A stretch of 64,000 nucleotides of DNA, taken from Thermosipho sp. (in: thermotogales) (lineage in GTDB: Bacteria > Thermotogota > Thermotogae > Thermotogales > Fervidobacteriaceae). The translations under genes were made by a program, and so were the position numbers. This document shows, one piece after another, positions 20,112 to 21,619 of this stretch (its first letter is position 1; every line of letters starts with the position of its first letter). Below the pieces are notes generated by a model, which saw only the letters and a list, made by a program, of their open reading frames with translations, ran no database searches and was not told the DNA's origin. The stretch spans positions 310,001-374,000 of the forward strand of contig JACDOA010000002.1 in assembly GCA_017656335.1 (NCBI GenBank), in the 5' to 3' direction.

Positions 20112-20468
20112 TTATTTTTTAATTGCCTCCTTGGCAATGTTAACATATTCCTTAAAAGTTTCAGGATCATTTACTGCAAGCTCAGCAAGCATTTTCCTAT
20201 TTATAGAAACCCCAGCTACTTTTAAACCGTAAATTAATTCATTGTATTTTAATCCTTCATTTCTGGCAGCGATATTTATTCTAGTAATCCAAAGTTTTCT
20301 GAAGTTTCTCTTTTTTAATTTTCTGCCTGAATAAGCATGTTTTTTAGCTTTTATATATGCTTGTTTGGCAAGTCTATATCTTCTGCTTAATGCACCCCTG
20401 TATCCTTTTACTGCTTTTAAAATCTTTTTTCTTTTTTTTCTAGCATTAACTGCATTTTTTACGCGCAT
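20112..20468 (-). CDS. rplT: 50S ribosomal protein L20
   Basis: 118 residues, the usual length, with the basic N-terminus and [20 protein letters not shown] followed by [12 protein letters not shown]-like residues (here [14 protein letters not shown]). L20 is an early 23S rRNA-binding assembly protein and in firmicutes represses its own operon by binding the infC leader. The matching attenuator here is at 21234-21322. ATG at 20468 has GGAGGAATTTA before it. Confidence 0.96.
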
Positions 20469-20486: not shown

Positions 20487-20690
20487 TTATCTTTTACCAA
20501 GTACTCTTAAAATTCTTTTTTTGTCAGCTGGTTTTACTTCAACTTCAAGTCTTAATTTTCTGAGCGTTGATCTTCTTTTTTTACCTGTTTTATGCCAGGC
20601 AAATGCTCTTCTTCTCATTATCTTGCCGTTTTTAGTTACTTTAAACCTCTTAGCGGCTGTTTTGTGTGTCTTCATCTTATTCTTAGCCAT
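20487..20690 (-). CDS. rpmI: 50S ribosomal protein L35
   Basis: A small basic protein of 67 residues with the family pattern KTHKTAAKRFKVTKNGKIMR. ATG at 20690 follows GAGGAGGG at a 5-bp spacing; a start five codons upstream would lie within that ribosome binding site. It sits between infC and rplT, the classic order. Confidence 0.95.
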   Translation of the reverse strand: MAKNKMKTHKTAAKRFKVTKNGKIMRRRAFAWHKTGKKRRSTLRKLRLEVEVKPADKKRILRVLGKR

Positions 20691-20701
20691 ACTTTCCCTC
20701 C

Positions 20702-21211
20702 TCAATTCTTAGGTTTTAACATCATCCACATGTCTCTTCCTTCAAGTTTAGGTGGTTTTTCGACGGTTGCGATATCTTTTAGATCAGAAATAACTCTTTC
20801 TAAAATCTCTTTTCCTTTATCTACAAATGCTAATTCCCTTCCTCTAAACATTATTACAACCCTAACTTTATTTCCTTGTTCTAAAAATCTTTTAATATGT
20901 CTAACTTTTGTTTGATAATCGTGTTCGTCAATTTTTATTCTGAACTTCATCTGCTTTACCTCAATAATTTTTTGATTCTTTTTAGCCTTTTTCTCACGTT
21001 TAGCTAATTCATATTTATATTTACCATAATCCATTATTTTAGCAACTGGTGGATTGGCATTTGGTGCAACTAAAATAAGATCAAGCTTTTTGGAATAAGC
21101 CAATTCCAAAGCATCTTTCGTTGGCATAATTCCCAATTGTTTTCCTTCTTGATCAACAACCCTTACTTCAGAGGCTCTAATTTCCTCGTTTTTAATTATC
21201 TTATCGATGAT
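20702..21211 (-). CDS. infC: Translation initiation factor IF-3, probable AUC start
   Basis: IF-3 keeps 30S subunits free and checks the start codon. The conserved N-domain begins IIKNEEIRASEVRVVDQEG and the C-domain has RIKIDEHDYQTKVRHIKRFL. No ATG, GTG or TTG lies between the ribosome binding site GGGAGGGG (rc at 21215-21222) and the conserved KIIKNEEIR; the only in-frame standard codon, TTG at 21244, is upstream of it in the terminator stem. ATC at 21211 (5 bp after GGAGG) or 21208 (8 bp) fits. infC is known to use rare AUU/AUC/AUA starts for self-control in other bacteria, which supports this reading. The first or second ATC cannot be told apart. Confidence 0.9.
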   Translation of the reverse strand: MIDKIIKNEEIRASEVRVVDQEGKQLGIMPTKDALELAYSKKLDLILVAPNANPPVAKIMDYGKYKYELAKREKKAKKNQKIIEVKQMKFRIKIDEHDYQTKVRHIKRFLEQGNKVRVVIMFRGRELAFVDKGKEILERVISDLKDIATVEKPPKLEGRDMWMMLKPKN

Positions 21212-21233
21212 TTTCCCCTCCCAATATAAAAAT

Positions 21234-21322
21234 TTGGCGAGCAAGCGCCCGCCAATATTAGTTCCGAAAATTTATATTAACCCTTTCGCCTTTGTGGCTG
21301 AGGGTGGGAAGCGGGCGCTTCC
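21234..21322 (-). promoter_or_regulatory. Attenuator leader of infC-rpmI-rplT (L20-leader-like)
   Basis: The minus-strand leader contains three pieces. (1) A terminator-like hairpin at 21234-21255: TTGGCGGGC, loop GCTT, GCTCGCCAA, then ATTTTTAT. (2) An upstream arm AAGCGCCCGC (rc at 21311-21320) that is perfectly complementary to GCGGGCGCTT (rc at 21243-21252) inside that terminator, giving a 10-bp antiterminator; the same arm can instead close on itself (21307-21322). (3) Between them, ACCCT-CA-GCC...GGC-GAA-AGGGT (21280-21305), a stem with an asymmetric internal loop suited to bind L20. The folds are read from sequence; regulation by L20 is inferred from the firmicute system. Confidence 0.72.
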
Positions 21323-21343
21323 ACTTTTAATTATTTATTACTT

Positions 21344-21419
21344 TGGTGGGCCGTGTGGGACTCGAACCCACAGCCCCCTGATTAAGAGTCAGGTGCTCTA
21401 CCTGTTGAGCTAACGGCCC
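21344..21419 (-). tRNA. tRNA-Lys (anticodon CTT)
   Basis: The full cloverleaf is readable on the minus strand: acceptor GGGCCGT / ACGGCCC, anticodon stem CCTGA / TCAGG with loop CTCTTAA, T loop GTTCGAGTC, and an encoded CCA (rc at 21344-21346). It is the last of three tRNAs before the infC leader. Confidence 0.95.
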
Positions 21420-21424
21420 GCTCA

Positions 21425-21499
21425 TGGTGCCCCAGGGAGGAATCGAACCTCCATTTGCGGATTAGGAATCCGCCGTTCTATCCGTTGAACTACTGGGGC
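21425..21499 (-). tRNA. tRNA-Arg (anticodon CCT)
   Basis: Minus strand: acceptor GCCCCAG / CTGGGGC, anticodon stem GCGGA / TCCGC with loop TTCCTAA, T arm GGAGGTTCGATTCCTCC, discriminator A and encoded CCA. It lies 2 bp from tRNA-Glu and 5 bp from tRNA-Lys, so it is part of one transcript. Confidence 0.95.
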
Positions 21500-21501
21500 T
21501 T

Positions 21502-21576
21502 TGGCAGCCCCACGGGGAATCGAACCCCGACCTTCGGACTGAGAATCCGACGGACTAGCCGTTATCCTATGGGGCC
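21502..21576 (-). tRNA. tRNA-Glu (anticodon CTC)
   Basis: Minus strand: acceptor GGCCCCA / TGGGGCT with a terminal G-U, D arm with TAACGGCTAG, anticodon stem TCGGA / TCCGA with loop TTCTCAG, T arm CGGGGTTCGATTCCCCG, discriminator G and encoded CCA. First gene of the tRNA trio and closest to the promoter. Confidence 0.94.
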
Positions 21577-21590
21577 ATAATACCATATTA

Positions 21591-21619
21591 AATAATAACA
21601 TAAAAAGTATTGTTGTCAA
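21591..21619 (-). promoter_or_regulatory. Promoter of the tRNA-Glu-Arg-Lys / infC unit
   Basis: Minus strand: perfect -35 TTGACA (rc at 21614-21619), 17-bp spacer, -10 ATTATT (21591-21596). The expected start is a few bases before tRNA-Glu. It may also supply the infC operon by readthrough. Confidence 0.7.

Follow-up and report, generated by a model that had tools for sequence, protein, structure and literature searches.

The window analyzed here, a stretch of 64,000 nucleotides from a Thermosipho genome, carries infC, rpmI, and rplT, the genes for IF3, L35, and L20, on its minus strand, and between tRNA-Lys and infC, on the same strand, lies a leader that ends in a terminator hairpin (Table 1). 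The gene of the presumed ligand, rplT, is thus part of the same operon, and it is single in the genome. The original prediction had described this element well but missed its strand and the presence of tRNA-Lys 17 nt upstream, with no promoter-like site in between.

Table 1. Features of the locus, with positions in the window
Feature	Position	Strand	Remark
Candidate promoter of the tRNA-infC unit, TTGACA-16-TATTAT	21592..21619	-	11/12, TG before -10; consensus match only
tRNA-Glu(CUC)	21502..21576	-	
tRNA-Arg(CCU)	21425..21499	-	
tRNA-Lys(CUU)	21344..21419	-	17 nt 5' of the conserved AAG of the leader
RF00558 (L20_leader) match	21223..21332	-	Model 1-127 of 127; 41.0 bits, E 6.2e-7
Conserved AAG of the leader	21326-21324	-	Precedes helix H1
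Helix H1, GGAAGC-GCCC-GCUUCC	21307..21322	-	First half of the presumed L20 site
Helix H2, ACCCUC-A-GCC(acaaa)GGC-GAAA-GGGU	21280..21305	-	Asymmetric internal loop
H1-H2 junction, presumed L20 site		-	Role of the junction from Babina et al. 2018 (PMC6097659), accessible text
Antiterminator arm 1, AAGCGCCCGC	21311..21320	-	
Antiterminator arm 2, GCGGGCGCTT	21243..21252	-	Overlaps the 5' strand of the terminator
Intrinsic terminator hairpin, then ATTTTTATAT	21234..21255	-	
infC (IF3)	20702..21211	-	Pfam match; start inferred from Shine-Dalgarno spacing and relatives
rpmI (L35)	20487..20705	-	ORF as listed and Pfam match; true start may be further in
rplT (L20), presumed feedback ligand	20112..20468	-	Pfam match; single match in the genome

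The hairpin, TTGGCGGGC-gctt-GCTCGCCAA, consists of nine pairs, one of them G-U, and is followed by ATTTTTATAT, in agreement with the 9-bp terminator-like hairpin and T-tract first reported. Also borne out was the 10-bp complementarity between arms 58 bases apart, GCGGGCGCTT matching the reverse complement of AAGCGCCCGC at every position. Between these arms, the asymmetrically looped stem that had been seen corresponds to helix H2, and the element as first delimited runs from the end of the terminator (21234) to that of helix H1 (21322). An A+U-rich linker lies between H2 and the terminator hairpin. Taken alone, the hairpin is at chance level, as shuffles of the 4-kb region predict 2.3 terminator-like sites and two were found. 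The fold of the whole 131-nt leader, on the other hand, was better than those of 200 out of 200 dinucleotide shuffles (z of -2.5), and the terminator of the window scored 17.3, whereas 30 shuffles of the same segment averaged 5.3 and did not exceed 9.4. When one leader per genus was scored in this way, the value was above all 30 shuffles in 35 of 37 genera and was equaled once in the other two. A chance hairpin is ruled out by this score together with the compensatory pair changes and the fit of the cognate arms described below, and the strongest evidence beyond chance is the conservation of the leader across the phylum with compensatory change.

The covariance model of the Rfam L20 leader (RF00558) aligned end to end with the leader, with H1, H2, and the terminator in order. 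The comparison with this model that had been proposed for the locus therefore yielded a full-length alignment, at a score that is below the gathering score of 58.7, so a default Rfam scan of the window lists only the tRNAs. Terminator/antiterminator logic before infC-rpmI-rplT, likened in the original prediction to L20-controlled attenuation in Bacillus, is supported at the locus, but the accompanying statement that the sequence is different must be abandoned, given that all 127 model positions align and that the accessible text of Sun et al. 2013 (PMC3766115) reports L20 motifs in Thermotogales. Within the genome of the window, the leader was the best match, followed by one of 26.9 bits. Matches with an E value of ≤1e-3 were obtained in 62 of the 103 Thermotogota genomes, with a single genome passing the gathering score, and in 60 of these 62 the best match shared its strand with infC and preceded the gene by 28 to 168 nt. 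The other 17 matches, none above 35.9 bits, fell at different places in the genomes; the two that were read proved to be plain hairpin-plus-T terminators rather than leaders. Ordinary terminators can score up to 35.9 bits with this model, which counts against the assignment. When 20 infC loci, chosen from those without an RF00558 leader match plus a few with one, were rescanned with permissive filters and an E value of ≤1, 11 showed RF00558 at the leader. Among the other subthreshold Rfam hits at the locus, AniS and the plastid untranslated region families were rejected, as they lie on the plus strand and the plastid ones cover a tRNA.

To follow the leader in the phylum, we used the infC regions of 98 relatives and the window (99 in total), taken from 103 Thermotogota genomes, of which 99 contained an IF3_N match (the exceptions were G074, G001, G013, and G026). 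All 98 regions of the relatives encode IF3, with L35 and L20 following in 97 and lost to a contig end in the last. H1 and H2, defined as the H1 motif with a downstream hairpin, were located in 97 of the 99 regions, window included. The two that do not match the H1 motif are L039, where the contig starts inside the leader, and L129 (genome G003, family f6), which has a degenerate H1 between tRNA-Lys and infC and possibly represents a loss of L20 control; its relative L125 retains the motif. In the 97 leaders, H1 formed standard pairs in 565 of 582 cells, compared to 365 and 351 when the partner was slid by one base, although the regular expression used for anchoring fixes part of H1 pairs 1 to 3 and the outermost H2 bases, not the combination of partners. 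Pair 1 is G-C in 84 leaders and A-U in 12, pair 5 is G-C in 71, A-U in 15, and C-G in 5, and pair 6 is C-G in 66 and U-A in 13. The outer five pairs of H2 were formed in 480 of 485 cells, and its closing pair is either A-U (92 leaders) or G-C (5), never a mixture of the two, so that all five leaders with G for A also have C for U. These counts were taken from all 97 leaders and not from the MAFFT alignment, which serves for display only and comprises 42 of 55 selected leaders, the long-loop leaders of f10 as well as L120 and L123 having been left out. That 97 of the 99 regions, representing 10 families, contain the leader suggests that it is old within the Thermotogota.

The antiterminator was evaluated by pairing the segment from H1 to the start of H2 with the 5' side of the terminator in 37 genera. 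Cognate arms gave a mean duplex energy of -19.5 kcal/mol, compared to -14.9 kcal/mol for arms taken from other families, and the sum of the cognate energies was not reached by any of 20,000 permutations, either over the 37 genera or over the 10 families. Exact-match runs were also longer between cognate arms (mean of 6.4 nt versus 4.7 nt when swapped; 0 of 20,000 permutations), even if the cognate run was strictly longer than that with every other-family partner in just 9 of the 37 genera. Compensatory changes in the pairing arms, whose absence among relatives would have counted against the original prediction, are present, so that the idea survives this comparison, and cognate arms fit best. 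In transcripts ending just before the 3' strand of the terminator, all 37 genera had the antiterminator in the minimum-energy fold at 70°C, and 36 had it at 37°C; with swapped arms it still formed in 68 of 111 combinations at 37°C, because all of these arms are G+C rich. The full transcript of the window folds as H1, H2, and terminator (-35.1 kcal/mol at 37°C and -15.2 kcal/mol at 70°C), and among the full-length transcripts of the 37 genera, the minimum-energy fold contained the terminator in 30 and lacked it in 7 at 37°C, with 25 and 12, respectively, at 70°C. On these folds, antiterminator and terminator are predicted to be mutually exclusive. The position of the antiterminator arm is not constant. 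In the genus of the window it consists of the H1 loop together with the 5' strand of that helix. The arm of families f2 and f3 reaches farther toward the 3' side of H1, and f9 seems to use the 5' strand of H2 instead of H1 (CCCCGCC with GGCGGG). The f9 loci (L071, L077, L078, L082, L083, L085, L086, L102, and L103) have an additional GTCAATA/TATTGAC pairing between H2 and the terminator.

The leader adjoins a tRNA gene in all genomes whose upstream sequence could be read. Of the 97 Thermotogota leaders (loci L040 to L136 and the window), 96 have a tRNA-Lys(CUU) gene upstream in the same orientation, and in the remaining one the region ends at a contig end. The distance between tRNA-Lys and leader ranges from 2 to 64 nt, usually 2 to 38, with a median of 13, and is 30 nt or less in 88 of the 96. 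Which tRNAs precede varies with the family, the arrays being Glu-Arg-Lys in f1, Arg-Lys in f2, Ala-Arg-Lys in f3, and Lys alone in f8 and f9. A separate promoter would hardly fit into so short a gap. In the window, the sole good promoter-like site on the minus strand, as judged by consensus match only, is that before tRNA-Glu, and a consensus scan listed none on this strand from 21592 to 21224. The leader is thus probably the 3' part of the tRNA transcript. Cotranscription with the tRNAs and termination at the hairpin are deduced from the sequence, and the L20-controlled terminator probably also ends the tRNA unit. We found no published report of a tRNA link of the L20 leader in the open-access literature covered, which does not include the main B. 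subtilis papers.

A second layer of control may exist at the start of infC. In the window, the most probable start is a non-AUG codon, ATC at 21211 (21211-21206), behind GGGAGGGG (21222-21215), and a scoring of Shine-Dalgarno distance that favors ATG nevertheless gave ATC, ATT, or ATA as the likely start in 85 of the 99 regions. No credible ATG, GTG, or TTG start for infC was found in the window or in the relatives where a non-AUG codon was favored. IF3 of Escherichia coli is a repressor of its own gene and acts at the AUU start codon. The non-AUG start suggests a similar autoregulation by IF3, which may act on top of the control by L20, i.e., there may be two feedback loops in the operon.

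The leader was also detected outside the Thermotogota. When a pattern scan was run for H1 directly behind the 3' end of a tRNA, 23 stretches came up, of which 19 were labeled as Thermotogota lineages, 2 were labeled "Candidatus Eisenbacteria," and 2 carried the plain label "bacterium." One of the latter (L145) has tRNA-Lys(CUU), and the other (L153) resembles the Eisenbacteria pair. In L153 and this pair, tRNA-Val(GAC) is found upstream and infC and rplT downstream, and RF00558 matches all three with 37 to 42 bits. When 20 genomes of this third phylum were searched, RF00558 matches appeared in 13, all 13 with tRNA-Val(GAC) upstream and with infC, rpmI, and rplT downstream. The order tRNA-Val(GAC)-L20 leader-infC-rpmI-rplT was seen in L147, L150, L153, and L165 to L177, and in the first three of these the long downstream open reading frames look, by eye, like pheS and pheT. 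The scan returned 23 stretches although 50 of our own 99 loci fit the pattern; it is thus incomplete, and a lack of hits in other phyla is no evidence of absence.

The RF00558 alignment, the covariation of H1 and H2, and the fit of the cognate arms together indicate that infC-rpmI-rplT is very probably governed by a transcription attenuator of the L20 type. As described in the accessible text of Babina et al. 2018 (PMC6097659) and of a review (PMC10931766), the H1-H2 junction is where L20 binds in B. subtilis, and a Rho-independent terminator is stabilized by this binding; by homology we infer that L20 is the ligand here and that the response has the same direction. Polymerase would start upstream of tRNA-Glu, transcribe the three tRNAs, and reach the leader within 17 nt. 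With free L20 scarce, the H1 strand AAGCGCCCGC would pair with the emerging GCGGGCGCUU and capture the 5' strand of the terminator, leading to read-through into infC-rpmI-rplT. Once L20 exceeded its 23S rRNA sites, it would bind the H1-H2 junction and keep H1 closed, which would free the 5' strand of the terminator, so that the terminator would form and transcription would end after the tRNAs. The AAGUGGAAG of the leader resembles AAGUGUGGAAGG in a 23S rRNA segment of relatives when the sequences are simply read side by side. No 23S rRNA gene was found in the 33-contig assembly of the window (G000) or in two of the relatives searched, and it is probably missing from these assemblies.

Two other readings of the locus have to be weighed. 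The hairpin could be just the terminator of the tRNA operon, with the complementarity a by-product of two G+C-rich hairpins and infC expressed from a promoter of its own. It does come after three tRNA genes, in a 4-kb region where terminator-like sites occur at the chance rate, and the G+C-rich arms often pair when swapped, as noted above. We nevertheless consider this very unlikely in view of the compensatory changes of H1 and H2 throughout 97 of 99 regions, the better fit of cognate arms, the RF00558 match at the same place, and the stretch from 21592 to 21224 devoid of minus-strand promoter-like sites.

About equally unlikely is that the attenuator, though real, senses a signal other than L20, such as IF3, L35, tRNA-Lys, or temperature. 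IF3 and L35 are also encoded by the operon, and the leader adjoins tRNA-Lys throughout the phylum, but the third phylum has tRNA-Val in its place, indicating that the identity of the neighboring tRNA is not conserved with the leader. Moreover, the conserved H1-H2 region is recognized by RF00558 and, according to the accessible text of Babina et al. 2018 (PMC6097659), forms the L20-binding portion of the B. subtilis RNA. L20 thus stays the presumed ligand.

In comparison with the B. subtilis leader and RF00558, the Thermotogota leader shares the place before infC-rpmI-rplT, the order of helices (H1, H2, and terminator), a full-length covariance match, the presumed L20 site at the H1-H2 junction, and mutually exclusive terminator and antiterminator, which here are predicted. 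It differs from RF00558 in that the leader of the window scores under the gathering cutoff, and from B. subtilis in that it is found directly behind a tRNA gene, whereas the B. subtilis leader stands behind its own promoters, and in the antiterminator arm, located in the loop and 5' strand of H1, further 3', or in H2 depending on the family. In E. coli, as outlined in the accessible text of the review (PMC10931766), L20 likewise represses rpmI-rplT through mRNA resembling its rRNA site, but that control is translational, involves a pseudoknot and a hairpin, and leaves infC outside. Also close is the L20 motif of Thermotogales, from the same family and phylum, one of four ribosomal-protein motifs in the accessible text of Sun et al. 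2013 (PMC3766115), and the leader of the window is evidently one of these; to that motif we add structure, antiterminator, and tRNA linkage. Transfer from Firmicutes is proposed in the same text, while that of Babina et al. 2018 (PMC6097659) describes the L20 leader RNA as narrowly distributed to Firmicutes. The present data side with Sun et al. over a distribution restricted to Firmicutes, and extend their finding. This kind of regulator was already known in the phylum, and what is new here is the phylum-wide coupling to tRNA genes, the moving antiterminator arm, and the presence in a third phylum.

The range of a leader that one paper (PMC6097659, accessible text) calls confined to Firmicutes is thereby widened, and it can be traced through the whole phylum even though the Rfam cutoff misses 102 of the 103 genomes searched. 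Its antiterminator arm changes position in the RNA, in contrast to the presumed protein site, which does not move. We give about even chances to the broader proposal that the L20 attenuator outside the Firmicutes is an old device which, in the Thermotogota and one or more other phyla, lacks a promoter of its own and rides on a tRNA transcript. If true, a single L20-controlled terminator would close the tRNA unit and meter IF3, L35, and L20, ribosome-assembly genes would be tied to tRNA transcription, and a narrow Firmicutes origin followed by recent transfer would be argued against. At this locus, the idea that transcription of tRNA genes feeds an operon for ribosomal proteins can be put to the test.
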